From: Chloroflexota bacterium | Lineage (GTDB): Bacteria; Chloroflexota; UBA11872 | Direction of reading: 5' to 3' | Length of the DNA: 64,000 bases | NCBI GenBank assembly: GCA_028873795.1 | Contig: JAPPNP010000063.1 | Span: 1 to 64,000, forward strand | In this document: positions 4,451 through 25,211 of the stretch, in pieces | Position numbering within the stretch: the stretch's first letter is position 1 | Layout of the letters: each line of letters starts with the position of its first letter | The notes under the pieces: model-generated | The model's input: the letters and a program-made list of their open reading frames with translations, nothing else | Told to the model about the DNA's origin: nothing | Databases searched by the model: none | Program-made: the position numbers and the translations under genes

Positions 4451-7339
4451 TCACAGGCTTGGTCGGCGCCGGCGCTGCCACCGCAGCATCGAACAGCACC
4501 GAGAGAAATCGACGCCGGTGACCACGAGGCTCGCCGCCAAACCTCCGGCGGTGACGGCGGCAATGGCGATGCCGAGGTCGTACCACCGCTGGGGGGCAAA
4601 CTCGAAGATGAGCTCGGCGCCGTCGGCGACGGGCAGGAAATAGCCGTTCCAGAGGCCGTCCGCGAGCACCGGCGCGAACGCTTCGCCATCGACCCACGCC
4701 AGCCAGGCCGGATCATAGGCCCGGCGGAGAACGATGAACGCCCAGCCGTTGGCGCCGCGCGCCGTGGCTTCGAGTCGCGTCGGCTCTGCCGTCGAGACCT
4801 CCAGGCGCGGCTGGACCAGCGCGGGTGAGGCCGGCGCGACCGTGGGACGCCACTCCATAGGCGTCAGGGCCAGTGTGCTCACGGCTTCGAGTCCGGGTCC
4901 GGCGGAGACGCCGATCCGTCCGTCCGCGGCCAGGCCGACCCGCATCCAGCGCCAGCTGGTCGTCGCGGCATTGGTCGTCAGGCGCGCGACGACGGGCCCG
5001 CTCGCGACGTCGAGCCAGCTCGAGCGAGGGCTGGTGAATACCCGCAGCCAGACGGCGCGATCTCGGTCGTCGGGGACGTCAATCAGCAGCGTTTCACGTT
5101 CGCCGTCGGGTCTGGCGAAGGCCAGGCCCAGGCCGTAGTCCGACGCCCAGTCTTCGAGGTCCTCGCGCGCCAGGCGTTTGAGCCATGCCTGCCGTTCATC
5201 GGCGTAGGCGCCGCCGCGGGTCCAGCCGCCTCGCGATCCGTGGAAGCCAAACCAGCCAGTGACCGGCAGGAGGGCAACATCGCTGTCGATGGCAAAGACC
5301 GCGTCAGTGGTTGGCTGGGCGGGGAACGTCGCATCGGGCAGCGCAGGCCGCTCGCCGTGGTTGGCCAGGATGCGCGTCGTGCCGGCTGGCGCGGAGGCGC
5401 CCAGCCGGTCGCTCCAGACTGCGCGCGTGGATTCGAGCAGCGGCGCGGCGGCGCCGAGCTCAATCGCGAGTGCGTTGGGGCCGGACGCCAGAACGGTTGC
5501 GTTCGGCAGTGCGGCGAGGGCCGCGGCCAGCTCGTCACCCGCCGGTTGATCGCGCATCACCACCGCGTGGCTGAACCCCGCGCGTTGGGCGGCGTCGCGC
5601 GCGGCTAGCGGCTCGCTGCCATAGATGTACTCCATCCAACGCCCCGTAACGGGCGCGGGCGGAACCGGCGACCGCGTGTCGCCGGTGAGCGATGGGTGCG
5701 CCAGGCTTGCGGCCTCCATCAGGCGCAGGGTGCGCGCGGGGTCCCAGGGCGCGGGTCGATCATCGGAGGACACGACGAGAATCCGTCCACCGGGGCCCGC
5801 GGCCGCGTCCGCCACCCGGAGCACGTCGCGATAGTCCGCCGGCAACGAACGCGGGACGTAGCCAGGTTGATCGGTGCTCCACAGCAGCGGGATGCCGGGG
5901 ACGGCGTGAACGCCTAACGCCAGGGCGACATATCCGGCCAGCAGCGCAGCTCCGAGCGCTCGCGGCGCCCGCCATCCGGGCGCCGCGCGGCTCAGAAGAT
6001 CCGCGATCACGAAACCGGCCCCAAAGGCCTGCGCCAGAATCAGCAGGCCGACAACGCGATCCGGCTCACGGAAGACCCACAGGCCGGGCACGGTATTGAC
6101 CGCCGTCTGATAGGCATCCGCGGTGAGCGTCCAGTTCGATGCGGCCGCCACCAGTGCCGCGGTGTAGCCGCCAACGGCCACGAACAGCGCCGGCGGACCC
6201 CAGCGACGCCGCAGGACGGCCGCGAGCGGCAGCGCCGCCACAACCCACCCCGCGATCTCCCAGGGCAGCCGGTCGGCGCCCGCGGGCGCCAGCACGTCGT
6301 GCCAGTTGGCGTTGCCCGCTCCCTGCAGTGTGGTCGGGAGGTCCTGGTAGCGCGACAGCACCGTGCGCGTTTGGTCCATGAGCGTGTAGGCCGGGTCGGG
6401 GCTGCCCCCAAAGAGCTTGAGGGCGACAAACGGCGCGATCTGGTAGGCGAGAAGGGGGGCGACGGCGGCCGCCCACACCAGGACGTCGGCCAGCGCCCGG
6501 CGCCGCTTGACGGGACACTGCACCATCGTGCCGACGGCCCAGGCGGCGATCATCAGGGCAGTAAGTACCAGATAGTGCGGCTGGGCCGCACCGAGGAGAG
6601 CAAAGGCGAGCGCGGAGGCAACGGTCCAACGCCGTTGCGAGGTTCGCGTGCCTTCGAGATAGAGCCCCAACACGAGGGGCATCGCCGCCCACTGGGCCAG
6701 GAGCCAACTGTGTTCCAGGCGAGCGATGGCCCAAGGATTGACCACCAGGGCAACCCCCGCGACCATGGCGCCGACGGCGGCGCTGGTGCGGGGGATGCCA
6801 CTTCGCCAGCAGGCGACCAACGCAAAGGCGGCAAAGGCGCTGACATATCCGACGCCGGCGATCCACAGCACAATCAGCCGTGCATACGTCGCGCCGTCGA
6901 GGCCGAGCGCCTTGGCGACGCCGACGAGAGCAAGCGTGATCGGCAGCCGTCCCGTGCCGGCGATGTTGAGCGTGTCGCGCGGGGACCAGAGCGGGTAGAC
7001 GCTGTGCTCGACGACCCGATCAAGGACCAGCGACGGATAAAGGTCTCGCTGCTGCAAATCGCCAGGAGTCGTGATGACCGCCCAAAACACCGCCCCGACA
7101 GTGAGCGCGCCGGCGGTGAATGCCAGCAACCAGGGGTTCGCCAGCCACTTGACGAGCCATCGGGCAACCGCCGGCCGCGCTGGCCGATAGCCGAGGTGAT
7201 CGGTCGCTACCGATGATGACGCGGCGATTTCGGGTGGTGCCCGGGATGCTGGCGGCCGTGAGTGTAGTCGCGGCCCTGGCCGCAGTCTTGATGCTGGGGA
7301 CGGCCGAGCGCGAGTGGCCGGCCTTCCCGGCGTACGCAT
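4451..7339 (-). CDS. Giant GT-C-like membrane glycosyltransferase (paralogue 1)
   Basis: Up to 962 residues. Following a first transmembrane helix is the loop TTPGDLQQRDLYPS, which aligns with ATPGEIIQGDLGYP of the 11024-13099 protein. An acidic residue in the first outer loop is typical of GT-C enzymes that use lipid-linked sugars. About twelve further hydrophobic segments follow, then a ~400-residue periplasmic beta-rich region and a C-terminal module (YDPAWLAWVDG, then NGYFLPV) ending in one last helix, a pattern shared with YfhO/AftD-type proteins. The start is uncertain: the ATG used here overlaps the divergent gene by 127 bp, and the only other in-frame start is a TTG at 7129 that cuts into helix 1. 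The product is probably a transferase working outside the membrane; no substrate can be named. Confidence 0.75.
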   Translation of the reverse strand: MRTPGRPATRARPSPASRLRPGPRLHSRPPASRAPPEIAASSSVATDHLGYRPARPAVARWLVKWLANPWLLAFTAGALTVGAVFWAVITTPGDLQQRDLYPSLVLDRVVEHSVYPLWSPRDTLNIAGTGRLPITLALVGVAKALGLDGATYARLIVLWIAGVGYVSAFAAFALVACWRSGIPRTSAAVGAMVAGVALVVNPWAIARLEHSWLLAQWAAMPLVLGLYLEGTRTSQRRWTVASALAFALLGAAQPHYLVLTALMIAAWAVGTMVQCPVKRRRALADVLVWAAAVAPLLAYQIAPFVALKLFGGSPDPAYTLMDQTRTVLSRYQDLPTTLQGAGNANWHDVLAPAGADRLPWEIAGWVVAALPLAAVLRRRWGPPALFVAVGGYTAALVAAASNWTLTADAYQTAVNTVPGLWVFREPDRVVGLLILAQAFGAGFVIADLLSRAAPGWRAPRALGAALLAGYVALALGVHAVPGIPLLWSTDQPGYVPRSLPADYRDVLRVADAAAGPGGRILVVSSDDRPAPWDPARTLRLMEAASLAHPSLTGDTRSPVPPAPVTGRWMEYIYGSEPLAARDAAQRAGFSHAVVMRDQPAGDELAAALAALPNATVLASGPNALAIELGAAAPLLESTRAVWSDRLGASAPAGTTRILANHGERPALPDATFPAQPTTDAVFAIDSDVALLPVTGWFGFHGSRGGWTRGGAYADERQAWLKRLAREDLEDWASDYGLGLAFARPDGERETLLIDVPDDRDRAVWLRVFTSPRSSWLDVASGPVVARLTTNAATTSWRWMRVGLAADGRIGVSAGPGLEAVSTLALTPMEWRPTVAPASPALVQPRLEVSTAEPTRLEATARGANGWAFIVLRRAYDPAWLAWVDGEAFAPVLADGLWNGYFLPVADGAELIFEFAPQRWYDLGIAIAAVTAGGLAASLVVTGVDFSRCCSMLRWQRRRRPSL

Positions 7340-7962
7340 TCAACCTGGACTTCGGACCGGCATTCGCTGGGGGCAGTCTCGAGCAAGGGCTTGCCGCCCC
7401 GGCGACGCCGCTGCGCCGCGTCGAGTTGCAAGCGGTAAGCCCCTGGCCCGACACCGTCCTGGTGCGGGTGCGTGACGTCGGCGATCCGGCAGCTTCACTG
7501 CTGGTCGAGTCCAGCGTTGAAGTTGACGCCAACGGCGCGATTCGGGTTGCGATTCCGCGGACGGTGGATACAAGCCGACGGATGCTCCAAATCCAGGTTG
7601 TCAATCCGGCAGGCTCGTCCACACCGCTGGTGCTTCAGGCCAACCGCACCGATCCCTATGCTCAGGGCCGCGCCGCCATCGGCGGCGATGTCGGCACGGG
7701 ATCGGTTGACCTGGTGCTTCAGACTTGGCGGCGTATCACGCCAACGGCCCTCGGAATCGAGGTCGTGCGTGCGAACGGGCTCGGCGCCCTCTTCGCGCTG
7801 GCGTCCCTGATCGTGGTCGCTGGTCTGGCGCTGGTTTGGATCTGGCGAAGATTCGCCGGGCGATCGCGATCCGCGCTGACGTCGGCGTGCGCGCTGGTCG
7901 CCGCGGCCGGCCTCGCATTGGCGCGGGTGGGCTTTGAAGTCCTCGCGCCCTGGCTGGCGTAG
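7213..7962 (+). CDS. Membrane-anchored ectodomain protein (GT-C partner, paralogue 1)
   Basis: About 249 residues with an N-terminal helix (residues 9-30), a ~150-residue beta-rich outer domain, and two C-terminal hydrophobic segments near residues 193-215 and 225-245. The domain opens with LDFGPAFAGGSLEQ, matching FELGPLAGSVTQ and FEIGPLLPGWSLRQ in the two paralogues at 10305 and 17668. This is the jelly-roll-like pattern seen in many bacterial envelope proteins. It lies head-to-head with its GT-C neighbour, whereas the other two pairs are co-transcribed. There are alternative ATG starts at 7216 and 7246. The function is unknown; an accessory or glycan-binding role for the adjacent transferase is inferred. 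Confidence 0.65.
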   Translation: MMTRRFRVVPGMLAAVSVVAALAAVLMLGTAEREWPAFPAYAFNLDFGPAFAGGSLEQGLAAPATPLRRVELQAVSPWPDTVLVRVRDVGDPAASLLVESSVEVDANGAIRVAIPRTVDTSRRMLQIQVVNPAGSSTPLVLQANRTDPYAQGRAAIGGDVGTGSVDLVLQTWRRITPTALGIEVVRANGLGALFALASLIVVAGLALVWIWRRFAGRSRSALTSACALVAAAGLALARVGFEVLAPWLA

Positions 7963-7971
7963 GCGGCGGCG

Positions 7972-8988
7972 CTACCGACCCCACTCGGCGCGGCTGTGCG
8001 GACGCGCCGCCCCCAACAGGTGCCGCAGCATCACGGTGCCGTACACGATGAGTGTGATCCAGCAAGCCGGGACGTGAAAGAGCCAGGCGCGATCAGGCCG
8101 GCGGATCCAGCCGATCGCCGCCTGGATCAGCAGGGGCACGATCGTCAGCGTGGCGGCGGCGAATAGCAGGACGCCTCGTCGCGGCGGAGCGGCCGGCACC
8201 GTCCGAATGCCTTCCGCGCTGAAGTAGAGGAAGTCCTGCGCTCGCCGCGCTTGCTTGCGGGCGAACTGTCGCAGTGTCTGGGCATAGTGGTGCGCAATTC
8301 CGAGGTGCAGCTTGGCGACGTGGACGGACGGGCCGGTCGTGCCCAAGTGCAGGATGTCGACGTCGAAGAGATATCCGTCGCGAACGGCGGCGGCGGCAAT
8401 CGTCCGCCGCGTGAAGAAGCCGTTGGCCCCCACCGTGGGCAAACGCTCTCGACGGAACCGAACCTTCCGATGCGTTGGGGACTCTTCGTAGACCTGATGA
8501 TCCACGCCGGTCCACTTGCCGGTCACCAGGCACTCGCGGTCGTAGGTCCCAAGGAACAGGACGAGGGGATCGTTCATGCCCAGCAGGGCGAAGTAGCGGT
8601 CGAGCGCGGGCATCGTGTCGAGGGCGGCAAACTGAATGGGCTCGGCGCCCGCAATCTGTGGATCGGCCAATGCCTCGATCACAGCCTGGAAGGTCCGCGG
8701 CGACGGAAACTCGTTGTCCGAGTCGACAAAGCCGACGATTTCGTGCGACGCGTGCGCCAGGCCCGCCGCCTTGCCCGCTTCGCCTGTGACCAGCGGGTTG
8801 TCGACGACGGTGCAGCCCCAGGACCGAGCGGTCGCGCGCGTGGCGTCGGTTGAGCCCCCGTCGGCCACGATGACTTCCACCCCCTTCGCCGGATAGCGCT
8901 GGTCGCGGATAGAACGCAGGGCGATCGCCAAGCTGTCCGCGCAGTTGAGGGTGGGAATGACGATTGAGATTCCGGGGGCAGTGGCCAT
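7972..8988 (-). CDS. GT2 family glycosyltransferase with C-terminal membrane helices
   Basis: 338 residues. An N-terminal GT-A domain (ISIVIPTLNCADSLAIALRSI) carries the nucleotide-sugar motif VDSDNE near residues 92-97, in a family-2 setting (VIVADGGSTDATRA). The C-terminal third holds two or three hydrophobic segments (about residues 255-325), so catalysis is at the inner face of the membrane. The gene ends 9 bp from the convergent ectodomain gene. It is the last gene of the minus-strand run 13099 to 7972, which links it to the second GT-C pair. It probably adds a sugar to a lipid-linked intermediate. Confidence 0.88.
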   Translation of the reverse strand: MATAPGISIVIPTLNCADSLAIALRSIRDQRYPAKGVEVIVADGGSTDATRATARSWGCTVVDNPLVTGEAGKAAGLAHASHEIVGFVDSDNEFPSPRTFQAVIEALADPQIAGAEPIQFAALDTMPALDRYFALLGMNDPLVLFLGTYDRECLVTGKWTGVDHQVYEESPTHRKVRFRRERLPTVGANGFFTRRTIAAAAVRDGYLFDVDILHLGTTGPSVHVAKLHLGIAHHYAQTLRQFARKQARRAQDFLYFSAEGIRTVPAAPPRRGVLLFAAATLTIVPLLIQAAIGWIRRPDRAWLFHVPACWITLIVYGTVMLRHLLGAARPHSRAEWGR

Positions 8989-9069
8989 GGCTGGCAGTAT
9001 GCCGAAGCGCTATCGGAACCAGTCGGCTGGATTCGGCAACCGTGACCGGGTATTCGCGCGTGAGGACTT

Positions 9070-10308
9070 CTAGGCGCGGTCGCCGTCCGCGCCGCCGTTG
9101 TCGGCGTCAAATCCGTATTGGCGGACGATCACATCAGCGTTGCGCTCCGAAAACCGGCGCTCGGCGGCGGCGCGGGCTCGCCGGCTGAGCGCGGCCAGGT
9201 CGGCGCGTTCGGACAGCAGCTCCCGCAGGGCGGTCATGAAGGCCTCGGCGCTCGGCTCGACCAGCCGGCCAATATCGGCAGTCACGGCTTCTCGCAGACC
9301 GCCCAAGTTGCTGGCGACGATCGGCGTGCCGGCGGCGCTGCCCTCCAGCACGACGATTCCCGCCGCCTCTTCATACTGCGACGGCACGAGCAGGACGTCC
9401 GCAGCCGCATAGATCGTCGCGATGGTGTCGAGACGTTGGGCTGGGGCGCCCGCGGGATCCGTCATGAGGGTGAGGTTGGGGTATGTCGCGGAGGCCTGGG
9501 CAACCTCGGCTCCCATGTCGCCCTCGGCGCCCAGCATCCTGAACTGCACGTCGGGCAGCCGCCGGGCGAGATCGAGAACGATGCCGACGCCCTTCTTCCG
9601 GAGGAGTCGGCCAACAAAGAGGCAGGTGGGCGCCGATTCCGGCCACCCGAGCCGCCTGCGGGCTTCGGCCTGGCTTCGCGGCCGAAACACGTCGAGATCG
9701 ACCCAATGCTGGTGGGCGGTGACCCGATCCGGATCCAAGCCAATCGCCAGGAGCTCTTGCCGGGACGCCTCGCTCACCGTCAGCACCCGGTCTGCGCGCC
9801 CGAGCAGGGAGCGCACGCCTTGCGCCAGCACCCGGCGCTGCCGCAGGTCGTAGATCGCGTGCATGCTGACGACAATCCGCTGTCGTGCGCCGGTCCAGCG
9901 CATTCCCAAAGCCGCCACGGCGGCGGCCAATCCGTGCGCGTGAATTACGTCGAAGCCAATGGTGTGGCGGAAGCGGTGTCGAACGGCGCCGACCAGCAGG
10001 CCGGGCACGAGGTAGGCAAAAACAAGCGGCGCGTAGGGTTCGATGCGCGGATGCCAGCCCCGCCCAAACCAGGGAATGCGGATGACTTCGCCATTGGCGA
10101 GCGCCTCGTGCGATGGGGCCTGCACCGGCGCGACGAGCGGTTGGTGGGTGAGCAACGTCACCCAAATGTTCCGCCGGGCGAGGGCGGCGATGAGCGCGTC
10201 GATGTGGGTCTCGACTCCACCACGATTCGGGGAGGCGAACGGGCTCAGCATGAGAACGCGCCGCCCGGTCGGATGGCCCGTGTCTGGCGCAGCGGCGGCC
10301 GGCGTCAT
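9070..10308 (-). CDS. GT4 family glycosyltransferase
   Basis: 412 residues with a GT-B fold. The N-terminal half begins VLMLSPFASPNRGGVETHIDALI, the usual GT4 acceptor-domain start with the GGVE loop. The C-terminal half carries the E-x7-E donor motif (EEAAGIVVLEGSAAGTPIV). The start ATG overlaps the stop of the preceding ectodomain gene by 4 nt (ATGA), so an open frame that continues far upstream is not coding there. It is third in the minus-strand operon of GT-C, ectodomain protein, GT4 and GT2. It probably acts on a cytoplasmic lipid-linked acceptor; the donor sugar is unknown. Confidence 0.9.
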   Translation of the reverse strand: MTPAAAAPDTGHPTGRRVLMLSPFASPNRGGVETHIDALIAALARRNIWVTLLTHQPLVAPVQAPSHEALANGEVIRIPWFGRGWHPRIEPYAPLVFAYLVPGLLVGAVRHRFRHTIGFDVIHAHGLAAAVAALGMRWTGARQRIVVSMHAIYDLRQRRVLAQGVRSLLGRADRVLTVSEASRQELLAIGLDPDRVTAHQHWVDLDVFRPRSQAEARRRLGWPESAPTCLFVGRLLRKKGVGIVLDLARRLPDVQFRMLGAEGDMGAEVAQASATYPNLTLMTDPAGAPAQRLDTIATIYAAADVLLVPSQYEEAAGIVVLEGSAAGTPIVASNLGGLREAVTADIGRLVEPSAEAFMTALRELLSERADLAALSRRARAAAERRFSERNADVIVRQYGFDADNGGADGDRA

Positions 10309-11027
10309 AACAGCGCGGCCGGCCCGTGCATCAGGGCCAGGACGGCTGCTGCGGTCACCCCGCCGCCTACCAGCACCGCCGTCGGCCGCCCAATGCGCCG
10401 GCCGGGCAGCGAGGACCACGCGGCGGTACCGACGACCGTCCCTCCCAGCAACGCAACAGCGACACCGACGACCAGATATACCGGTGACTCCGTTGCCTGG
10501 GTTCTCAGGCGGGTGACTGGGCCCGCGTGACCATTGGCCGAGAAGGCCAAATCGACGTCGACCGGAGACTGGCCGAGGTGGTCGACCAACTGACCGCCGG
10601 CGAAGGCATCGTTTCCGGTTGCCCCAACATAGAGATTCGCCGGACTCTGCTCCGGCGCCACGACTTGCAGGGACAACGGTCCCGCAGGCAAGTCGATTGG
10701 CGAAAACGTAATCGGCACCGCCTGAAGTTCGGCGCTGTCCGGTGCTTCGAGGCGCGCGGATCGGATGGGGGAGCCGCCCTCGGCCGAGAGAAGGTGGACG
10801 TCGACATAGGCTGGAGGTCCGCCCGCGCGCCGCGCCCAAATGGTCACGGTGTCGATCGGCCCGCCGGGGAAGGCGATCGACTGCGTGACCGATCCCGCGA
10901 GCGGGCCGAGCTCGAAACTTGGCGACACTGGATTCCGGGCAGTGATCAGCGGCTTCCATCCCAGCCCGGCGGCCGCCCCCAGCGCAAGCGCCAGCGCGAC
11001 GACAACGAGCCACGTTGCGACTCTCAT
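10305..11027 (-). CDS. Membrane-anchored ectodomain protein (GT-C partner, paralogue 2)
   Basis: 240 residues with an N-terminal helix (residues 5-22), a beta-rich outer domain starting SFELGPLAGSVTQSI, and a C-terminal pair of hydrophobic segments. A segment near residues 140-165 (NDAFAGGQLVD, then VDVDLAF) matches the 'G..(20)..DLxF' ending of such jelly-roll domains. Its ATG overlaps the stop of the upstream GT-C gene by 4 nt, and its own stop overlaps the GT4 start by 4 nt. The three products are therefore likely made in step. It is a paralogue of the proteins at 7213 and 17668. The function is unknown. Confidence 0.72.
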   Translation of the reverse strand: MRVATWLVVVALALALGAAAGLGWKPLITARNPVSPSFELGPLAGSVTQSIAFPGGPIDTVTIWARRAGGPPAYVDVHLLSAEGGSPIRSARLEAPDSAELQAVPITFSPIDLPAGPLSLQVVAPEQSPANLYVGATGNDAFAGGQLVDHLGQSPVDVDLAFSANGHAGPVTRLRTQATESPVYLVVGVAVALLGGTVVGTAAWSSLPGRRIGRPTAVLVGGGVTAAAVLALMHGPAALL

Positions 11028-13099
11028 CGCCGCCCACGAATTGGTTCCGGCCGATATGGCCACAGGGCCCACGCGCCCCACGCAAAAAGCCCCGCCCACG
11101 CTATGGCGTGGCCGGCCAGCAGCGCCCGGTGCAGGCCGTACTCGAGCACCAGACGGCCCGAGGTTCCGGCTTCGGTGCGGACGCTAAGCAGGCCGCGCCC
11201 CGATGGCTTAACGGTGGCGTCAAAGCCCGGTACCTGAGCGGTCCAGAGTGGGTCCCAGTGCTCCTGCGTGACGATTTCGCCAGCATGTCCCCCGGATGGC
11301 GGCAGGTCGATGACCAAGCGATGCATGCCGTCACGCGTCCACGGTAGCTCAACAGGACCAGCCGGACTCTCGGCATAGACCCAGGGATACGGCGGATCAA
11401 TTGTGCGAAACAGCTCGTAGTAGTCCGCGGTCAGCTCCGGGGCCAGACCGTCCGCCTGGCGCAGCGCCTGGGCAAGCTGCCGACCGCGAAGGGTGCCGGT
11501 TGGCACCAGCACCCGCGCCACGCCGTGAGCTCGAAGCGTATCGGCCACGTCGGGAGCGTTGGACTCAAGCAGGGCCACGAGTCGGTCACCGACCAACGAG
11601 TTGTCCACCGCATATGGCGTAGTGACGGCAAGCGCCTCGATGGCGTGCAACACCCGGTTCTGCCGCGACCACTCGGGGAAGCGCAGCGGCCACGCGGCCA
11701 GCAGCGTGCGCGATGCTTCGGCGGCGTTACGACGGTCGATCTCCGCCGGCACCGTGCGGAACGACGCCGGGAACCGCTCCGGGACGATGCTCAGCGCTCG
11801 ATCGTCCCAGAGCATGCGATGGATTCCCGGCGCCACGAACGCCGCGAGAAGAATCACGAGCACGGCTGTTTGCATGGATGCAACCGCCGACAAACGGCGC
11901 GGCGCGTATCGAGCGAGAGTCGCCGGCGCAAGGGCCAGTCCGGGCAGATAGGCCAAGGCAAGCGCGCCGGAGAGCTTGTCGGGCTCCCTGAGCGCCCAGC
12001 CGAATGGCGCATGCTCGACGACGGCCAGGTAGCTGGGACGCAGCGCCTCGTGCCAGCTGGCAATTTGAATGCAAGCCGTCGCCGCGCCGACGATTGCGGC
12101 GAAGCCCAGCACGCGTCGCTGACCGGGTAGGCGCCAGAACGTCACCGCCAGCAGGGCGGCAGGGACCAGGGCCGCCATGCGCCATCCCGGCAAGGCCGTC
12201 GACTCGGGCATTAGACCCCGGCCGAAGAACGTGTGTCCCGTGAGGGTGAGGGTGTTGATGATGGATTGGCCACTCTCGAGCACCGCCTGCACGTCGGTTC
12301 CTTCGGCATATCTGGGTCCGGTGGGCGATCCGGCGGCCGCCGTGACCAGGAGCGGTACCAGGATGAAAGCAGCGAACAGGGCGAATCCGGCCACGAAGAT
12401 CACGGCGCTTGCGCCGATCAGGCGGCGGGGACCGCGAGTCGTGCAGGCGGCATAGACGAACCAGCCCAGACCGACGAGCAAGCCGATCGCCATGTAGTGG
12501 GGGGAGGTGGAGACGGCGAAGGCCAGCACGGCGGCCGCCGCCAACGCGCGATGCGCCCCGGCTCGGGCGCCGGGGGCGCGCGTCGCCGCCACGACGAGAC
12601 CCAGCAGGAGCGGAAGCAACACGGCGCTCACGTGCACCCCCAATTGCTCCCAGCGCGCCAGGGTCCACGGATTGAGTGCCCAGAACAGTCCCGCAAGCAT
12701 CAGGCCAAGACGCACCGCGATAGGATGCGCGCCCCGGATTTCTGGCCCCGCGAGCATTCGCGCTCCGAGATATCCGGCCAGGAACCCCAGGAGATGCCAG
12801 CTCAACCAATGGAACTTTCCGGCCACTTCCGTGGTCAGATCGAACGCCTGCACCAGATAGCCCCACGGCACATAGGTGTAGGTGCGCATGACGTTGACCA
12901 GCCCGGTGCCGTACGACGTATCCCAGGCGCTGGTGAAGCGACGAGTCCAGAACACGTCGGCGAACGGATAGCCAAGGTCGCCCTGGATGATTTCGCCCGG
13001 AGTCGCCACCACTCGCCAGCCGGCGGCGACGGTGACCGCCAGTCCCAGCACAACCCAGGTCGAGTCGCGGGCCAGCAATCGGGCCATATGGCTGGTCAT
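11024..13099 (-). CDS. GT-C-like membrane glycosyltransferase (paralogue 2)
   Basis: 691 residues. Helix 1 is at about residues 14-30, followed by the outer loop ATPGEIIQGDLGYPFADVFW, whose Asp sits where GT-C enzymes keep a catalytic acid. About twelve helices run to near residue 420. A periplasmic region follows, with a short C-terminal beta module (HWDPLWTAQVPGFDATV) and a final helix. It is shorter than its paralogues at 4451 and 18786. A second ATG at 13087 is possible. It heads a four-gene minus-strand run with 4-nt overlaps. It most likely transfers sugar from a lipid carrier outside the membrane; polymerase or side-chain transferase is not distinguishable. Confidence 0.75.
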   Translation of the reverse strand: MTSHMARLLARDSTWVVLGLAVTVAAGWRVVATPGEIIQGDLGYPFADVFWTRRFTSAWDTSYGTGLVNVMRTYTYVPWGYLVQAFDLTTEVAGKFHWLSWHLLGFLAGYLGARMLAGPEIRGAHPIAVRLGLMLAGLFWALNPWTLARWEQLGVHVSAVLLPLLLGLVVAATRAPGARAGAHRALAAAAVLAFAVSTSPHYMAIGLLVGLGWFVYAACTTRGPRRLIGASAVIFVAGFALFAAFILVPLLVTAAAGSPTGPRYAEGTDVQAVLESGQSIINTLTLTGHTFFGRGLMPESTALPGWRMAALVPAALLAVTFWRLPGQRRVLGFAAIVGAATACIQIASWHEALRPSYLAVVEHAPFGWALREPDKLSGALALAYLPGLALAPATLARYAPRRLSAVASMQTAVLVILLAAFVAPGIHRMLWDDRALSIVPERFPASFRTVPAEIDRRNAAEASRTLLAAWPLRFPEWSRQNRVLHAIEALAVTTPYAVDNSLVGDRLVALLESNAPDVADTLRAHGVARVLVPTGTLRGRQLAQALRQADGLAPELTADYYELFRTIDPPYPWVYAESPAGPVELPWTRDGMHRLVIDLPPSGGHAGEIVTQEHWDPLWTAQVPGFDATVKPSGRGLLSVRTEAGTSGRLVLEYGLHRALLAGHAIAWAGLFAWGAWALWPYRPEPIRGRR

Positions 13100-13290
13100 G
13101 GAGGCGGCCTCGGTTGGCTGGCGCGGATCCGCGCCGGCGGCAGCCAGCGGCCACGCGCGTTCAGTACTATTCCGACCACCAACCCGTCAGGGGGCCAGCA
13201 CGCTCACCGGCACGAATGCACCGCCAGGCACCTTACCTTGTGGGTTGGCGGCGGCGATGATCTCGCGGCGGTCACGCGCCGTGTTCGCGC

Positions 13291-14184
13291 ATGCACCGCA
13301 CCGCTGAGTCGGCCGCCTCGCCGGCAGCCTGGGAGCGGCTGGCCGGCGTCCTCGCCAATGTTGGCGATCTGTCCTATCGCCGCCGGGTCCAGTCCGTTGC
13401 GGAGTACCTGAACCCGCGGCCCGAGCACCGCATCCTCGATCTCGGAGCTGGCGAGGGCTTCGTGAGCCTGGCGCTGCGTGAGGCGTTTGCGTGTCGCGTC
13501 GTGGCGCTGGACGCCGCGCCACCGATTCTGCGCCAGGGTGTGGATCGCGACGTTCACGGGTCCAGGCAGGTTTGGCTGCTTGGCGACGGCGCCGAATTGC
13601 CGTTTCGCGACGAAAGCTTCGATGGCGTTGTGTGCTCCGAGGTGCTTGAGCACGTCGATGACGACGCCAGCGTCCTGCGCGAGATCGCCCGGGTGCTCAA
13701 GCCCGGCGGCGTGGCCGCGCTGACTGTGCCCTGCGCCAACTATCCGGCGCTCTGGGACCCGTTGAACTGGATGCGTGAGCGGCTTGGGCTGGGTCACTTC
13801 AGCCCGGACTCCGGCTTCTGGGGCGGGCTGTGGGCCATGCACATTCGGCTGTACCGCGCAGATGATTTTCGCGAGCTTGTGGCGGGCGAGGAGCGCCTGG
13901 AGATCACGCACTTCGAGGGGCTCACCCGCTGGTGCCTGCCGTTCAACCACATGCTGTTGTGGACCGGCAAGCAACTCTATGGACGACTGCCGGAGACATC
14001 GGCCGCCTATCGGTCGATGGAGAAATTCGAGTATGCGCACACGCCACACCGGCGTCTGAGCCTGAACCCGATCACCTGGGGCCTGCGCTTGATGCAGCGC
14101 ATCGATCGTCGCAACGACAGCCTGCGGGATCCCTTTGGGCCAAGCACCAACTTGGCCATTCGAGCGGTCAAGCGGTCACCCTAG
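13291..14184 (+). CDS. Class I SAM-dependent methyltransferase
   Basis: 297 residues. Motif I is ILDLGAGEGFVSLAL (about residues 48-62), a following acidic strand reads VVALDAAP, and post-motif DGAELPFRDESFDGVVCSEVLEHVDDD is the Methyltransf_11 hallmark, with VLKPGGVAALTVP after it. The ~120-residue C-terminal part is not one I recognise. Set among glycosyltransferases, it probably methylates a sugar or a lipid-linked intermediate, but small-molecule or quinone substrates remain possible. It reads divergently from the GT-C operon across about 190 bp and converges on the GT4 gene at 14205. Confidence 0.85.
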   Translation: MHRTAESAASPAAWERLAGVLANVGDLSYRRRVQSVAEYLNPRPEHRILDLGAGEGFVSLALREAFACRVVALDAAPPILRQGVDRDVHGSRQVWLLGDGAELPFRDESFDGVVCSEVLEHVDDDASVLREIARVLKPGGVAALTVPCANYPALWDPLNWMRERLGLGHFSPDSGFWGGLWAMHIRLYRADDFRELVAGEERLEITHFEGLTRWCLPFNHMLLWTGKQLYGRLPETSAAYRSMEKFEYAHTPHRRLSLNPITWGLRLMQRIDRRNDSLRDPFGPSTNLAIRAVKRSP

Positions 14185-14204
14185 CGAGCGGCGGCGCGGG
14201 CCGG

Positions 14205-15359
14205 CTAGCTCCGATGGCCCGCAATCTCCTCGAGTTCACGGTGCGCAATGTCGGCCCAATCGAGCGAGCGCACGCGGGCCAGACCTCGCTCGGCGAGATC
14301 ACGACGGCCTGGCTCATCCGCGAGCAGCGCCACGATCTCGCCGGCGAACGCCGACGCGTCGCCTCGTGGAACGGCGCGAAACGCCTCGCCCCAGACCTCC
14401 TGGAGCTCCGGCAGGTCAAAGGCGATCACCGGCATGCCAAGCGCCATCGCTTCGCCGATCGCAATCGCCCAGTTCTCCTTGAACGATGGGTGAAGAAACA
14501 ACCTGGCCGTGCGAAGCGTGGTGAATGCCCGAGTGGTATCGAGGATCAGCCCCAAGAAGTCGACGTTGTCCTCGAGACCGAGCGTGCGGACTCGAGCCTG
14601 GGCGGCTTCCATGTCAATGCCGCCGCCAATGACCGCCAATCTGGCTGAGGGATTCGCCGCTACCACGAGCTTCCAGGCGTCAATGAGCGCAAAAATCCCC
14701 TTCTCGGCCGAGACGCGCATGAACGCCGCCGCGTCGTACCGGCGTTCCTTGGTCGTGCGGGCAATGGCATCGAGAGCGGCCAGGTCCACGCCGCAGGGGA
14801 CGGTTGTCACGCGCCGCTTCGGAAACCCCACGCTCAGCAGCAATCGCGTCGTGGCCGGGGAAACGGCGAGCAGGCGGTTGGCGCCCAGCGCCGCCGCGAG
14901 GAGTGACAGCCGCTCGGAAACCAGAAAGGCCAGGGATTGATACCAGTGATGGCCCTCGCGCCGCCAAAACCTCCACGCCGGGATGTTGTGCGCGACCACT
15001 GCCCAGCGCACGCGCCCGCGGTACCAGAGCTTGAGCATCAAGCCGGGCAGCGTGTCGTAGAGCTGCTCGTTCGCGCTGACGATCACATCCGGTTGCAGGC
15101 GCAGGAGCGACCGCGGGAGTCGAACGCACACGGTAATGGCGCGCAGCATGAACGACCAACGACTCTCACCGCCTTGCCAGTCAACAAGGTGCGCCTGTAC
15201 GGAGAGGCCCCGCTGACGGAACAGGTCAACGCTTGCCGCACTGCCCATCAGGTGGACGTCATGCCCAGCTCGTGCCCAATGTTTGGCAATCTCGATGACT
15301 CGGATGTCACCGCCGGCCACACCGACAGCCCTTTGCCCGGCAATGCCGTTCACGATCAA
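14205..15359 (-). CDS. GT4 family glycosyltransferase
   Basis: About 384 residues with a GT-B fold. The N-terminus is VNGIAGQRAVGVAGGDIRVIEIAKHWARAGHDVHLMGS, and the donor motif is KENWAIAIGEAMALGMPVIAFDLPELQEVWG (E-x7-E). It is closely paralogous to the enzyme at 23864, whose equivalent segment is VRILLIMNGLV. Aligning the two puts the natural start 4 codons upstream of the TTG used here, but that codon is ATA. Either an ATA start is used, translation starts at the TTG, or the start was damaged. The shared IEIAKxWxxAGHDVHLMGS block suggests the same type of acceptor for both enzymes. Confidence 0.88.
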   Translation of the reverse strand: MIVNGIAGQRAVGVAGGDIRVIEIAKHWARAGHDVHLMGSAASVDLFRQRGLSVQAHLVDWQGGESRWSFMLRAITVCVRLPRSLLRLQPDVIVSANEQLYDTLPGLMLKLWYRGRVRWAVVAHNIPAWRFWRREGHHWYQSLAFLVSERLSLLAAALGANRLLAVSPATTRLLLSVGFPKRRVTTVPCGVDLAALDAIARTTKERRYDAAAFMRVSAEKGIFALIDAWKLVVAANPSARLAVIGGGIDMEAAQARVRTLGLEDNVDFLGLILDTTRAFTTLRTARLFLHPSFKENWAIAIGEAMALGMPVIAFDLPELQEVWGEAFRAVPRGDASAFAGEIVALLADEPGRRDLAERGLARVRSLDWADIAHRELEEIAGHRS

Positions 15360-15921: not shown

Positions 15922-17721
15922 ATGACCAGCACGCCAATCGTCACGCTCGGCATTCATGACGGCATGGTGGCCGCGGCCGCGCTGGTCGTGGACGGCGAGC
16001 TCCGGGCCGCCTGTGCCGAGGAGCGACTAACCCGCAAGAAGAACCAGGCCGGGATTCCGCTTCACGCGGTCGAAGCAGTCTTGGCGACCGAGAGCCTCAC
16101 GATCGACGACGTCGACTCGATTGCGATCAGCACCCGTGACGGCGTGATGCCGACCGTCGATGACGTGCGTGCGTCACCGACGACATGGCGGTTCTATGAC
16201 GCCTATGGCGCCGCCGTGAGCCTGTTGGCGTCGATCGAGCGGCGCTGGCCGGCAAGCCGGGCGCTGACGCTGCCGTCCGACGCCGCCCGGCGGCTTGGTC
16301 GGCGGTTGCTCCAGCGCACCCGCGCCGCCGCGATCGCTCGGGCGACCGGAACCGACACGGGGCGCATGCGCTTCTACGACCATCACACCGCGCACGCCAT
16401 GGCCCTGGCTCCGCTGATCGGCCCCGAGCCAACGTTGGCCTTCACTTTGGATGGCGAGGGCGACGGCCTGAGTGGATCGGTTGCGTGGTATCGAAACGGG
16501 CAGCCGCCCGAACGTGTCGGGACCGTGTCGCGCAACGCCTCGCTCGGTCATGTCTACGCCGGAGTGACCGGCCACCTGCGCATGACGCCGCATCAGGACG
16601 AATTCAAGGTGATGGGCATGGCTCCATACGCGCATGCCAGCGCGCGCGACGCCTGCTACGACCGCCTGCGATCGCTGCTCTGGGTGGCGAAGGATCGGTC
16701 CGGTGCACCCTCCATTGCCGCGGCGCGGGGAACGCGCCTGGTGCATCGCTTCATCGACGACTACCTGCGGGAGTTCCGATTCGATGCCCAGTGCGGCGCC
16801 GTGCAACGGCTCTGTGAGGAGACCATTCTCGAGTGGATGTCCGATTGGGTTGGGCATCTGGGCCTCGACCGCGATGGCGTCGATATCGGGCTCGGCGGCG
16901 GGGTCTTCATGAACGTCAAGGCCAACATGCGAGTCGCGCAGCAACCCTGGGCTCGCACGGTCACGCCCATTCCGAGTTGCGGTGACGAGTCTTGCGCCGT
17001 CGGAGCCGCGTTTCTCGGGTACATGGACGCTTGTGCCGCTGCCGGGAGTCACCCGCAGTTTCATCAGGCCAACCACTTCTATCTCGGGCCAGGCTGGAGT
17101 GACGCCGATATCAAGCAGACCGTCGATCGAGCGGCTGGCGAGCACGGACTCCGCGTCGAACGTCCCACGGATATCGCCGACCATACCGCCGCCCTGCTCG
17201 CCGATGGTCACGTCGTCGCCCGATTCCACGGGCGCATGGAGTGGGGCGCCCGCGCCCTGGGCAATCGCTCGATCCTGGCGGACCCGTCTCGGCACGACAG
17301 CGTGCGCGAGATCAACACGCGCATCAAGAGTCGGGACTTCTGGATGCCCTTCGCCGCCACGATTCTCGCCGAGTCGGCGACGACCTATTTGCAGACACCC
17401 CCGGCCCCAAGGTCGCCGCACATGATGCTCGCCTTCGAATCCGTTCCAGAGCGTTGGCACGAGATCGCCGCGGGGACTCACCCCTACGACCGCACCTGCC
17501 GCGCTCAGATTCTTGAGCGCCAAACGAATCCGGACTACTACCGCGTGATCGAGCGCTTTCGCGTTCGCACCGGAATCGGCGCGGTGCTCAACACCAGCCT
17601 GAATCTCCACGGCGACCCGATGGTGAACTCACCGGACGACGCGCTGCGCACGTTGCTCGCTAGCGACCTAGCCTTCCTCACCCTCGGGGACTACCTCATC
17701 AGCAAGCCCGTCGCCGCGTAG
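15922..17721 (+). CDS. NodU/CmcH-type O-carbamoyltransferase
   Basis: 599 residues. The N-terminal Kae1/ASKHA-like domain has GIHDGMVAAAALVVDGEL, EERLTRKKNQAGIP, and the metal/carbamoyl-adenylate motif HHTAHAMA near residue 154. GGVFMNVKANMRVAQ follows. The C-terminal transferase domain has GRMEWGARALGNRSILADPSR and INTRIKSRDFWMPFA, both diagnostic. Such enzymes move carbamoyl from carbamoyl phosphate, via carbamoyl-adenylate, to hydroxyls of sugars (Nod factors) or antibiotics. In this locus a carbamoylated surface sugar is likely (inference). The chosen ATG gives the standard family start; a reading 19 codons longer is not conserved-looking. Its 3' end overlaps the convergent gene by 54 bp. 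Confidence 0.93.
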   Translation: MTSTPIVTLGIHDGMVAAAALVVDGELRAACAEERLTRKKNQAGIPLHAVEAVLATESLTIDDVDSIAISTRDGVMPTVDDVRASPTTWRFYDAYGAAVSLLASIERRWPASRALTLPSDAARRLGRRLLQRTRAAAIARATGTDTGRMRFYDHHTAHAMALAPLIGPEPTLAFTLDGEGDGLSGSVAWYRNGQPPERVGTVSRNASLGHVYAGVTGHLRMTPHQDEFKVMGMAPYAHASARDACYDRLRSLLWVAKDRSGAPSIAAARGTRLVHRFIDDYLREFRFDAQCGAVQRLCEETILEWMSDWVGHLGLDRDGVDIGLGGGVFMNVKANMRVAQQPWARTVTPIPSCGDESCAVGAAFLGYMDACAAAGSHPQFHQANHFYLGPGWSDADIKQTVDRAAGEHGLRVERPTDIADHTAALLADGHVVARFHGRMEWGARALGNRSILADPSRHDSVREINTRIKSRDFWMPFAATILAESATTYLQTPPAPRSPHMMLAFESVPERWHEIAAGTHPYDRTCRAQILERQTNPDYYRVIERFRVRTGIGAVLNTSLNLHGDPMVNSPDDALRTLLASDLAFLTLGDYLISKPVAA

Positions 17722-18789
17722 CCGAGAGACAGTCGACCGAGCCACCGCGGCGAGCAGCGCCCATGCGCCGGTCAGAAATGCCAAGGTCGTCGCCACGTCA
17801 TGAGCCTCCTGCATCGCGGCCGCGGCAGCGGCGCCTCCGAGGGGGATCGGAGCAAAATACCAGTGCCGGATCGCGGCGATGGACGCCAGCCACAGGCCCC
17901 GAGCGACCCGGCCGGCACTCTCGACGGCAGCCCGCGGCGCCGCGACGACGATCACGCCGAGCCCGGCGATAACGACGACGGGAAACGCGAGCAGGGCGGC
18001 GATGCCTGTCGGCGTTAGACCTTGCAGGATGCCGATGTCGGCTCCGGTGTCGAGCGGCACGCTGAGGTGGGCCGCAGCCACAAAGAGCCAAACCACGAGG
18101 GCTGCGACGCTTGCGAAAGCCGTGACACCGGTCGTAACGCGCCCGTAGACACTGACAAGCCGTATGGCGCCGGCGGCGCCCACCAGCGCGGCCAGAATGC
18201 CCGCTCCGGCTGCCGCGGCCAGGGTCCATCCCTCCAGCCGAGGCGCGACGGCATCCAGGTGGAGCGCCGGTGGCAAGCGTTGAAACATCCGGTGGCCGAG
18301 CGCCAGGAAGCCCCGCAATGGCTGCCCCATGATGGTGAGCTGAGTCTTGGCGTCAGGATCACCAATATCGACGCCGCGCAGCACGACTCCCCCGCCAGGC
18401 GAATCAAGGACGCGCACTGCCAGGATGTAGCCCGTACCGTCGATTGGCACTGGGAACGTGGCCAGGTACTCCGTCATTCCTTGACGCGTGAGGCTCAACC
18501 GGTCGGCCCAAAGCACGGTGTCGTCACGCTCGAGTCGCACTTCCAGCGTCGGTGGAGACTCGATAGACCCAGATGGACGCGCCTGAAATCCGACAAAAAG
18601 CTCTGGCCCGTGCTCGGGACTAAGCGCTTGTCGCAGGCTCCACCCCGGGAGCAGCGGCCCAATCTCAAAGGGCTCGCCCTCGACGCCGCCGACAGCCAGC
18701 GGCCCCGCGGGCCAGCCAAGGGCGGCGACAACGCTGAGGACCGCCGCGACCATCCAGGCCACCGGCGCGCTAAGCCTGCGGTGTTTCAC
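17668..18789 (-). CDS. Membrane-anchored ectodomain protein (GT-C partner, paralogue 3)
   Basis: 373 residues, larger than its two paralogues. An N-terminal helix is followed by the outer domain beginning FEIGPLLPGWSLRQALSPEHG. Instead of one or two, about four or five hydrophobic segments make up the C-terminal half (residues 190-360). The GTG start overlaps the stop of the upstream giant GT-C gene by 4 nt (GTGA), the same arrangement as at 11027. Its last 54 bp overlap the convergent carbamoyltransferase gene. The function is unknown, but fixed pairing with a GT-C protein in all three copies implies joint action. Confidence 0.72.
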   Translation of the reverse strand: MKHRRLSAPVAWMVAAVLSVVAALGWPAGPLAVGGVEGEPFEIGPLLPGWSLRQALSPEHGPELFVGFQARPSGSIESPPTLEVRLERDDTVLWADRLSLTRQGMTEYLATFPVPIDGTGYILAVRVLDSPGGGVVLRGVDIGDPDAKTQLTIMGQPLRGFLALGHRMFQRLPPALHLDAVAPRLEGWTLAAAAGAGILAALVGAAGAIRLVSVYGRVTTGVTAFASVAALVVWLFVAAAHLSVPLDTGADIGILQGLTPTGIAALLAFPVVVIAGLGVIVVAAPRAAVESAGRVARGLWLASIAAIRHWYFAPIPLGGAAAAAAMQEAHDVATTLAFLTGAWALLAAVARSTVSRLRGDGLADEVVPEGEEG

Positions 18790-21700
18790 GCCGACCGCCG
18801 CCACCACCGGCGCGGCATCGGCGCCCAGCCAAAGAGAAGCATGCCGAATAGGAACCCGAGATTCACCATCAGAATCCAGAAGTACCCGAAGTTTGGCGTG
18901 AACGTCGCCGTCACCACGTCCCCGGGCGCCAGATTCACGAACCACCCATTGAAGTGCCCGTCGACAACCACATGGCGCTCCGGGCTTACCTGCTGGTCAT
19001 TGACCTGGAGCACCCAGCGCGGGTCGAATCGTTCGTCAAGCCTGACGAGTTGCTCGCGCGGCTCGCCACGGTACTCCGCGGCTGCCCAGCCAAAGCCCTC
19101 GTCGGTCAGAGCGAGCGCGCCACCGGCGGGTGGCGGCGATTGCGGCGCATGCGCCAGGACGACGGTGAGGCTATGCGGCAGTGGGGAGACTCCAACCTCA
19201 AGCAATTCGAACTCCAGGCCGGGCAGTCCTTCGCGCAGGTGTTGCACGTCAAGCGAGGCGACGGGCGACCCGGCATCGAGCGGCACCTCGACCCGCACGG
19301 GCCTGTCGCGCTGATTGGCCAACTCGCGCTGAATCTCGTGCGCGACGTAGGGGTACGCCTGAGCGCCGATCACGTTGACGCCGTCGGCGCCGGTGGAGAC
19401 TCGACCGGCAAAGGAGACGATTCGGCCATCGGACGGCACCGACGCTTCGACTCGGACGGCGCCGGCGCACGTGGAGGTCTCGCACGGCTGGAAGTCCGTG
19501 GCCTCCGGGAGTTGATGGCTCACGCTGACCAGAGGCTCCGGCGGCGGTGCGGCCCTCAGGGTCAGGCGATGCAGTCCGGCGTCGAGCTCCGCAACCCCTT
19601 CCAAAATGTCGTAACCCAGCTCAGCTCCGCTGCGTTCCAGTGGGACCGGCGAGCCATCGATGCTGATCGCGGGTTGCAGGCCCGGCGGGGCAGCGAGGCG
19701 CACGGTGTACCCGCCGGCACGCGCCAGCTGAAAGGTGCGGTCGCCATCCGTCGTCCCCAGGTCCGGCAACACGGTGAAGACCGGAAGCTCAGCCAGCGCC
19801 CGCGCGGCCGCCCGCTCGGCTGCCTGAATTTCCGACGCCGACAGCAAGGCCAGCCGCGAAACGGCATTGAGCCCACGGCCATCGGTTCGCACCTGTACCG
19901 CATGGGGGCCCGCGCGGTCGGTCGGCGCGTCAACCCGCGTCCAGCGATAGCCGTAGCCGGCGGCCTCGCGGGTGTTGATGCGAGCCACGGATCGCCCGTT
20001 CAACACGACCTCCAGCGCACTGCCCTCGGGGCTCACAAAGTGGCGAATCCACAGCTCGTCGGTTGCGCCGGTGGTATCGACCGTAATCGTGAAGGCCGCG
20101 CCGTCGGCACGGGTGAGCAGTCCGCGCGTCATATCCGCGATCTCTGGATCGGCGTACCACCACGCGTTCTTGTAGGGCGCCACCCATTCCCGCGTAGCGT
20201 CCGGGACTTGCGGCCAGACCTGGTCCGCCGGGCTCGCCACCGTCTTCTCGGGCAGATAGTTGGCCACCAGGTCAAGCGGGTCGGCGCCCAACCAGATTTC
20301 CGTCGCGGCTCGGACGGCGCCGCCGGGCGCGCCGTCGATCCCGCGCACTCCCAGTTCGCCGCTGGCGATGGACACGGCTCTCGCGTCGGCGAACATATGC
20401 CAGGCGGTGACGAGTGGGCGCAGCGACGGCGACCCGACGATGACGCGCGCGGGCACACCCAATCGCGATGCCGGGGCGGTGGTCACTTCATACAGTTCGA
20501 CCTGGCCCACGGACAGGTCATCCAGACGGTCGAGGCCCGGCTGCGCCGCCAGGGCGAGTTGCGGGCGGGGGCGACGCTCCTGCCACGCCAACCATGGCTC
20601 GCCGGTCGGCACGATGAAGCCGGCGTGCGTGCTCTCCCAATGCGGATCGAGCATGACGTTGCGAAAGCGGCCGTACGCCAAGAGGCGGTCGACCGGATAG
20701 CGGTTCGGGCCATAGAAACCGTGATTGAGCGTGGCGGTCCAGGGGCCGTTGAGGGTGGATGCCGCCGAACCCCAGATGGAGCGTTTGGGCGGCTGCACGA
20801 CCGAGGGGGGATTCCCCTGGGTTGAGAATCGACCGGTGCTGCTCTGATAGCTGCTCGGCCAGAACATCGGCAAGTGGACCATGCGGTCGTTGTGAGGCAG
20901 CGCGCGCAGGTTGTCGAGCGCGGCGACGGTGTCGTCGTCGATCGTGTAGGGCGGCAGGTGGCCCGCCAGGTTGCCATTCCAAAACGGCAGGGTGCTGGCC
21001 GCGACCACTACCCCGACCAGAATGCCGCCCGCGCGGCGCCACACATCGGGCGGCCGCGCCGCGAGCTGGGCGACGCTTTGCCCCACCAGCAAGGCCAGCA
21101 GCAGGCCCGCCCCAACGGTGAGGTAGCGGATGTTCCTGAAGATCGCGCCCACCACCGTGTCGTCGATCGCATCCTGGATGACGGAGAACGGTTCGTTGAA
21201 TCCTTTCCCGATCAGCACCAGAGCGAGAAACCCGACCACGCCCAGCAGGGCACGCTGCCGGGCACGCCCAGACAGCAGCACCGGCGCAACCAGTGCCAGT
21301 CCCGTCATGAGGCCGCGCGCGACGAGCCGAACGCCGCTGCCGGCGGCAAGTGGACCCTCGGGATGTTGCGAGTAGTTGTAGGGAGGACCGGTCAGGGTCA
21401 GCGCCTCGGCCAGGGTCGGCGCGGCGCCCTTGATCCACTGCGCGGCAGCCTCGAGGCTCCATGCCGACATGACCTGATTGGCTGAGGGCACCACGATGAG
21501 CTGCCAGGTAATGAAGGAGATTGCCGGGTGCAACAGGATGACGCTGAGCCCCATCGCGGCGATGAGTCCCAGTCGCCGCAGGCGCTGGCCCCACGTGCCC
21601 GACGCGGTGAATGCCCGAAAGAGTGCATAGCCGCCGACCACGGCGGTCGTGATGAACGTCATGTGAACCGAGCTGGCAGCCAGGCCGATCCACAGGCTGC

Positions 21701-22319
21701 CGCGCACGAATCCGCGGACGCCCGGCGCGCGGTCGAAGGTCTCATGCGCAACCTGAAGGGCCTTGGGAAGCAGCGCCACGCTGATGAGCATGGCGGCGTA
21801 GCCGGTGATGAAGGCATCCAAGAAGAACGGCGTCGTCATGTAGACGACTGCGGCCGTGAAGGCCGCGGGCCTGCCGAACTCGAAGCGCTTGGCGGCCTGG
21901 TACATGAAGACGCCGGCCAGCCCGAGAAAGATGATCGAGACCCGCGAGGTGAACCAGCCGTCGATGCCGGGAATGAGCGTCAAGGCTCCCAAGGCGAGCT
22001 GGAGGTATTGGCTCATCGCCCGCTCTTCCTCGGATTGCCCGAAGTAGTTGGTCTGCCACGCCGAGAGCCGATCGAGGGCGAAGTCGGTGTTTTGCCAGGC
22101 GGCAAACGGAGTGGTCCAGTCGTCGCGCAGCCCGAGGTAGCCGGGATCGAAGATCAAGCCGCGGTGCCAGATCACCACCAGCAGCACGATGGCCGCGTAG
22201 GCCGCCGCGTCCGGGTGGCGGTGGATCAGCCTCCGAACCTGGGCAAATGTCCGCCGCAGCGCCTGAGACGCGACTGAAGGACCGCGGTTTGCCGCGGCCG
22301 GCATGGCGCTTGCGCTCAT
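18786..22319 (-). CDS. Giant GT-C-like membrane glycosyltransferase (paralogue 3)
   Basis: 1177 residues, the largest of the three. Helix 1 is at about residues 38-52, then GYLGLRDDWTTPFAAW gives the acidic first outer loop. Around a dozen helices run to about residue 450. A very long periplasmic portion follows with several beta domains, one matching the 4451 protein (YGYRWTRVDAPTDRAG, then GRGLNAVSRLALLS against WRWMRVGLAADGRIG, then GLEAVSTLALTP). The C-terminal YfhO-like module (FDPRWVLQVNDQQV, then FNGWFVNLAPGD) ends in a final helix. Architecture resembles mycobacterial AftD-type arabinofuranosyltransferases, with carbohydrate-binding modules after a GT-C core. The product sugar is unknown. 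Confidence 0.75.
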   Translation of the reverse strand: MSASAMPAAANRGPSVASQALRRTFAQVRRLIHRHPDAAAYAAIVLLVVIWHRGLIFDPGYLGLRDDWTTPFAAWQNTDFALDRLSAWQTNYFGQSEEERAMSQYLQLALGALTLIPGIDGWFTSRVSIIFLGLAGVFMYQAAKRFEFGRPAAFTAAVVYMTTPFFLDAFITGYAAMLISVALLPKALQVAHETFDRAPGVRGFVRGSLWIGLAASSVHMTFITTAVVGGYALFRAFTASGTWGQRLRRLGLIAAMGLSVILLHPAISFITWQLIVVPSANQVMSAWSLEAAAQWIKGAAPTLAEALTLTGPPYNYSQHPEGPLAAGSGVRLVARGLMTGLALVAPVLLSGRARQRALLGVVGFLALVLIGKGFNEPFSVIQDAIDDTVVGAIFRNIRYLTVGAGLLLALLVGQSVAQLAARPPDVWRRAGGILVGVVVAASTLPFWNGNLAGHLPPYTIDDDTVAALDNLRALPHNDRMVHLPMFWPSSYQSSTGRFSTQGNPPSVVQPPKRSIWGSAASTLNGPWTATLNHGFYGPNRYPVDRLLAYGRFRNVMLDPHWESTHAGFIVPTGEPWLAWQERRPRPQLALAAQPGLDRLDDLSVGQVELYEVTTAPASRLGVPARVIVGSPSLRPLVTAWHMFADARAVSIASGELGVRGIDGAPGGAVRAATEIWLGADPLDLVANYLPEKTVASPADQVWPQVPDATREWVAPYKNAWWYADPEIADMTRGLLTRADGAAFTITVDTTGATDELWIRHFVSPEGSALEVVLNGRSVARINTREAAGYGYRWTRVDAPTDRAGPHAVQVRTDGRGLNAVSRLALLSASEIQAAERAAARALAELPVFTVLPDLGTTDGDRTFQLARAGGYTVRLAAPPGLQPAISIDGSPVPLERSGAELGYDILEGVAELDAGLHRLTLRAAPPPEPLVSVSHQLPEATDFQPCETSTCAGAVRVEASVPSDGRIVSFAGRVSTGADGVNVIGAQAYPYVAHEIQRELANQRDRPVRVEVPLDAGSPVASLDVQHLREGLPGLEFELLEVGVSPLPHSLTVVLAHAPQSPPPAGGALALTDEGFGWAAAEYRGEPREQLVRLDERFDPRWVLQVNDQQVSPERHVVVDGHFNGWFVNLAPGDVVTATFTPNFGYFWILMVNLGFLFGMLLFGWAPMPRRWWRRSA

Positions 22320-25123: not shown

Positions 25124-25211
25124 GAGGGTCAGCGCCAAGGCAGCGAGCGCGCGATGCTACCACCGTCGCAGCTCGATACTGCAGCAATGCCCTCGAACTG
25201 GGTGAACGTCG

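Follow-up and report, generated by a model that had tools for sequence, protein, structure and literature searches.

The mycobacterial arabinofuranosyltransferases AftD and EmbC combine a GT-C core on the outer face of the membrane with a beta-sandwich of the acceptor-binding type, in the case of EmbC a CBM (PMC3044687), and carry their CBMs in the same chain. In two other mycobacterial systems, LpqZ-AftA and FecB-AftB(-Rv3035), a separate outer-face protein binds the GT-C and has been proposed to stand in for the missing CBM (PMC12802301). Eukaryotic GPI mannosyltransferase I (PIG-M/PIG-X, Gpi14/Pbn1; PMC12653191) consists of a GT-C and a TM-anchored accessory protein with a beta-rich lumenal domain, and multi-component transmembrane glycosylation (CsbB/GtcA/YfhO) relies on a GT2 with C-terminal TMs, a flippase and a GT-C (PMC8035078). 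Rismondo et al. speculate in their review of the latter systems that, for the smaller GT-Cs, a further protein may bind the acceptor polymer, and list no such protein (PMC8035078). The question is how outer-face GT-Cs without built-in binding domains recognize a surface polymer as it grows.

We have analyzed a locus in a 3.18-Mb Chloroflexota genome (89 contigs). The window, i.e. the whole stretch of DNA that was analyzed, comprises bases 1-64000 of contig 3 (64,000 nucleotides). The genes below read as a surface-glycan locus. On a codon-based gene map, the order from left to right starts with a sulfate permease and continues as follows:

4451..7210, minus strand: GTC1, polytopic glycosyltransferase of the GT-C type, outer domain at the C-terminus, about 919 aa; orthologues in G001-G006, G017, G020 and G023
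7213..7962, plus strand: S1, TM - beta-domain - 2 TM, divergent partner of GTC1
7972..8988, minus strand: gt2a, GT2 with C-terminal hydrophobic segments
9070..10308, minus strand: gt4a, cytosolic GT4 glycosyltransferase, 4-nt overlap with S2
10305..11027, minus strand: S2, partner of GTC2 with one TM, a beta-sandwich and two more TMs, overlapping GTC2 as ATGA (AF2 model, Foldseek)
11024..13099, minus strand: GTC2, GT-C glycosyltransferase, 691 aa (AF2 model, Foldseek)
13291..14184, plus strand: SAM methyltransferase
14205..15320, minus strand: gt4b, glycosyltransferase
15922..17721, plus strand: carbamoyltransferase (tailoring), convergent with S3, 3' ends overlapping
17668..18792, minus strand: S3, divergent and longer S protein made up of a TM, a beta-domain and additional TMs, overlapping GTC3 as GTGA
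18786..22319, minus strand: GTC3, GT-C-like, 1177 aa, large C-terminal outer region
22410..23687, minus strand: polytopic protein, Wzx-like, a candidate flippase without Pfam match
23864..25138, minus strand: gt4c, glycosyltransferase
25212-26936, minus strand: B12-binding radical SAM protein, HpnJ-like below cut-off

The locus resembles AftD and EmbC in pairing an outer-face GT-C core with a beta-sandwich that may be of the acceptor-binding type, but here the beta-domain either forms a membrane protein of its own or is fused N-terminally. With LpqZ-AftA and FecB-AftB it shares a separate, presumed outer-face partner for the GT-C. The mycobacterial partners are substrate-binding lipoproteins put to a new use, whereas S is a beta-sandwich anchored by TMs; its gene is coupled to that of its GT-C, and its partners come from many GT-C families. 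The likeness to GPI mannosyltransferase I is one of architecture, and Pbn1 has a single TM compared to two or three in S. As in CsbB/GtcA/YfhO-type systems, a GT2 (gt2a, a candidate maker of the lipid-linked sugar donor) and a GT-C are encoded together. The third component, in contrast, is a Wzx-like candidate flippase (Pfam searches at E 1 with seven orthologues gave no match in any), and the YfhO family is not matched: the YfhO-like C-terminal module of the original prediction, a likeness of motifs judged by eye, has no Pfam (PF09586) or NCBIfam match.

Some minor features of the locus were recorded as well. The Wzx-like protein (22410-23687) has 80% mean column identity among its relatives, and most members of the genus retain the radical SAM gene (25212-26936) at the locus edge. 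The carbamoyltransferase (plus strand) and S3 (minus strand) genes share 54 nt at their 3' ends (17668-17721), with similar overlaps in several orthologous loci. A minus-strand ORF (13204-14049) was discarded because it is antisense to the methyltransferase gene.

The reading of the large proteins as GT-C enzymes is borne out by the AF2 model of GTC2 (pLDDT 85.0, pTM 0.87). For this model and that of S2 (below), the alignments were shallow, with 39 and 19 sequences. By Foldseek, the first match of the GTC2 model in the PDB is AftD (6w98, E 3e-10), with further matches to STT3 (E 5e-6), AglB (E 7e-5), PglB (E 5e-4) and AftA (E 6e-4), so that, judged by its modeled fold, GTC2 is a GT-C enzyme. 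GTC1 is homologous to GTC2 over about 530 columns (hhalign 100%, E 1e-50) and is assigned to the GT-Cs by this homology; GTC3, a more distant relative of GTC1 (hhalign 97.9%, E 5e-13), is termed GT-C-like by that profile match. The motifs of the first outer loop are located as predicted (TPGDLQQRDLYP in ORF 4451, TPGEIIQGDLGYP in ORF 11024, GLRDDWTTP in ORF 18786). In this loop of GTC2, D41 is invariant across 19 GTC1/GTC2 sequences, down to about 20% identity, and D67 of GTC3 is invariant in nine sequences. Searches of GTC1, GTC2 and GTC3 against Pfam and NCBIfam gave no family match, including AftD and Emb, and their profiles found no match in the PDB by sequence. The suggested profile comparison with the AftD and YfhO families was thus negative, and the AftD likeness of GTC2 is one of fold only.

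The description of the three as giants does not suit GTC2, with its 691 aa. The GTC1 ORF as listed (962 aa, ATG at 7339) is probably over-long, because this start implies a 127-nt head-on overlap with S1, and orthologues suggest a start near 7210. GTC1 and S1 lie head to head, and their candidate start codons are a few bases apart in the inspected orthologues across the genus (window 7205-7216; L106, L100, L108, L111, L112); each promoter would therefore lie within the opposite gene. The relatives of GTC1 that carry names are MAGs of uncultured Chloroflexota, several of them apparently sponge-associated to judge by their bin names. Chloroflexota are abundant in marine sponges (PMC6306507).

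The ectodomains of the small proteins open where originally proposed, with DFGP at 7348 (plus strand), ELGP at 10913 (minus strand) and EIGP at 18666 (minus strand). Their proposed paralogy holds for S1 and S2 (profile comparison 97.4%, E 1e-11). S3 is probably homologous to both, because it matches S1 (82.7%, E 1e-5); direct profile comparison of S2 with S3 gave no match (8%, E 0.004). Together with the matches among GTC1, GTC2 and GTC3, these profile matches indicate that the likeness of the three copies is more than chance. S2 also matches the C-terminal part of approximately 480-aa proteins with six TMs (6TM-S proteins; E 3e-14), which S3 does not match.

The AF2 model of S2 (pLDDT 85.7) consists of a TM helix, a beta-sandwich mostly above pLDDT 90, and two TM helices, the ectodomain spanning about residues 30-168. 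By the positive-inside rule, basic residues of the TM2-TM3 loop suggest that the beta-domain is on the outside. Foldseek reports local matches of the model to CBMs (7zvo, CBM61, CBM4, CBM36 and CBM6; E 1e-4 to 3e-3) with TM-scores to the query of about 0.3. As the two best matches, a phage baseplate and an algal-virus capsid protein, have better E-values and the CBM likeness is local, the idea of a carbohydrate-binding, CBM-like ectodomain is suggestive only. The only nearly invariant S residues are Q49 and G145 (S2 numbering). The S proteins have no matches in Pfam, NCBIfam or PHROG, the S2 profile none in the PDB by sequence, and we found no description of the family in the open literature, a coverage that leaves out most subscription papers.

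At the locus, as the original prediction had it, every small protein directly adjoins its large one; S1 is divergent from GTC1. The S2 start lies inside the GTC2 stop (ATGA) and the S3 start inside the GTC3 stop (GTGA), with overlaps of 4 nt each. All three pairs are present in five genus relatives and in G006, and partly in G017, G020 and G023. In G020, the GTC2-S2-gt2a trio is together at 28% GTC2 identity, and gt2a adjoins GTC2-S2 as far as this genome. Four genomes contain a second GTC2-S2 pair; the copies group alike in the trees of both proteins, and the two genes were thus duplicated together. A third GTC2 copy in G004 was considered as an exception to the pairing and dismissed, as an S2 remnant lies beside it. 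In G016 and G021, S-like proteins are found beside GTC3-like giants; no S was detectable in the neighborhood of their GTC1-like proteins.

The proposed neighborhood search extends the S-GT-C pairing well beyond this locus, and to gene fusions. A profile search detects the S domain in 64 of 400 Chloroflexota genomes (29 by a narrower profile), and the roughly 90 stretches that we examined around S matches show three architectures. Stand-alone S proteins are TM-S-TM(-TM), mostly of 210-330 aa. Of the 44 scored beyond the main locus, 34 abut a polytopic protein (at least six TMs by a simple count from hydrophobicity, at least 400 aa, same strand, within 100 nt or overlapping), compared to 48 of 490 control genes from these stretches (9.8%), the tally being made by hand from a table, with contig-edge and frameshifted matches excluded from the 44 and control genes taken from a stricter gene caller. 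The binomial P is about 5e-26, or 5e-13 at 25% background, values that ignore kinship among the loci. Stand-alone S genes thus occur mostly beside such polytopic proteins, contrary to the refuting condition of the original prediction that the family be found mainly elsewhere, and they often overlap the partner gene by 4 to 8 nt.

Together with GTC1-3 and the fusions, the partners form 12 BLAST clusters, and they belong to several unrelated families. Partners at six loci (L167, L195, L202, L260, L269, L275) score above the Pfam PMT or PMT_2 cut-off, the one at L085 is AftB-like, and two others are DUF2142-like below the cut-off; for several families without a match in the Pfam search, the GT-C likeness is one of topology and length only. 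In the second architecture, found in 12 proteins from 11 genomes, TM-S-TM is fused N-terminally to a GT-C-like part with at least eight TMs (approximately 780-990 aa); examples are L206 3495-5978, L167 7188-9860 and L255 1549-4527. One partner family is separate from S on one contig of G021 (C3, L165) and fused to it on another (C10, L255).

While the pairing is kept over the three copies at the locus, the term "obligate" is too strong, given solitary S genes, solitary GT-Cs and 6TM-S proteins away from GT-Cs. Nine of the 44 stand-alone S genes (L103, L170, L271, L272, L274, L279, L280, L082, L281) do not abut a polytopic partner on the same strand. L082 was rejected as a pair because its neighbor, a MatE transporter, is encoded on the opposite strand, as are the polytopic neighbors of L281, which was rejected as well; a tenth gene (L248) was left uncounted, since the adjoining GT-C-like protein already has a fused S. 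L103 (6243-13057; G001:C14) contains additional S1-like copies, two or more of them broken, which lie beside a large 1283-aa protein with repeats and have no GT-C neighbor. The third architecture comprises the 6TM-S proteins (approximately 480-513 aa, C-terminal S domain), which are mostly encoded away from GT-C genes, show conservation of acidic residues within their TM part and abound in the family to which the window belongs; examples are L084, L094, L173, L177 and L181, and L156 and L157 on contigs C5 and C8 of the window genome. In proteins of approximately 760 aa (L161 5360-7639, L162, L204, L205), an N-terminal TM and a weak S match precede a domain that reads as sulfatase-like (sulfatase/alkaline phosphatase). 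The 6TM-S class and these sulfatase-like fusions show that the use of S is not restricted to GT-Cs.

The data strongly suggest a two-subunit GT-C, and we consider it probable that each pair is an outer-face glycosyltransferase in which the GT-C catalyzes and S is accessory. The active site would lie in the GT-C protein and include the acidic residue conserved in outer loop 1. This protein would transfer a sugar from what we infer to be a polyprenyl-linked donor, which gt2a or the GT4 enzymes would make inside and the flippase would carry across. S would be a membrane-anchored subunit with its CBM-like beta-sandwich next to the outer active site, where it may either hold the acceptor glycan or stabilize and position the enzyme. 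The three pairs would probably make three different linkages of one carbamoylated, methylated surface glycan. Loose clustering, with S an independent envelope protein encoded near glycan genes and making no contact with the GT-C, would accommodate the 6TM-S class, the orphan S1 copies without a GT-C neighbor and the divergent transcription of S1, but we regard it as very improbable: direct abutment, often with overlapping genes and with partners from unrelated families, gene fusion and co-duplication fit a physical unit better.

That S is an undescribed, Chloroflexota-wide family of acceptor-binding subunits, common to unrelated outer-face GT-C families and either separate or fused, has in our view just short of an even chance. 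S could also serve only folding or stability, anchoring the GT-C in the manner of PIG-X/Pbn1 without binding glycan. The beta-rich ectodomain and TM helix of Pbn1 dock on the GT-C Gpi14 (PMC12653191), Q49 and G145 have the look of structural residues and not of a conserved binding site, and GTC1 and GTC3 have large outer domains already. Differing glycan specificities, however, would also make surfaces variable, and the local fold likeness of S to CBMs and the precedent of CBM-like acceptor binding in EmbC and AftD (PMC3044687, PMC8035078) speak against a purely stabilizing role, which we consider possible but somewhat doubtful. A different question is whether the large proteins act as ligases or polymerases of whole lipid-linked oligosaccharides (an OST-, PglB- or Wzy-like role), with S binding the acceptor. 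STT3, AglB and PglB are among the Foldseek matches, GT4 enzymes and a Wzx-like protein are encoded at the locus, and the original claim that an O-antigen polymerase or ligase is missing stands for the window, which has no Wzy_C match. It does not stand genome-wide, as three proteins on other contigs score above the Wzy_C cut-off; moreover, the best match, AftD, transfers single arabinofuranosyl residues, and gt2a accompanies GTC2-S2 as far as G020, pointing to a mono-sugar donor. We therefore find this role unlikely. The Wzy_C proteins elsewhere and the Wzx-like protein at the locus also leave the idea of a complete, undescribed glycan assembly unit without support.

If the acceptor-binding reading of S is true, the family is the second protein lacking from the multi-component glycosylation model. 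In any case, S is a concrete, sequence-defined candidate for the protein guessed at by Rismondo et al. (PMC8035078), it is directly testable because of the natural fusions and co-duplicated pairs, and as a newly named domain family without Pfam, NCBIfam or PHROG match it offers a handle on the little-known Chloroflexota envelope.

G016 and G021 contain runs of at least four adjoining giant GT-C-like genes, coding for 880-1195 aa (L116 7945-20000, L117 3211-18832, L096). In G004 and G002, GTC3 is duplicated, and an FkbM-type methyltransferase gene lies between the copies (L107 3025-3762, L110 8530-9267).
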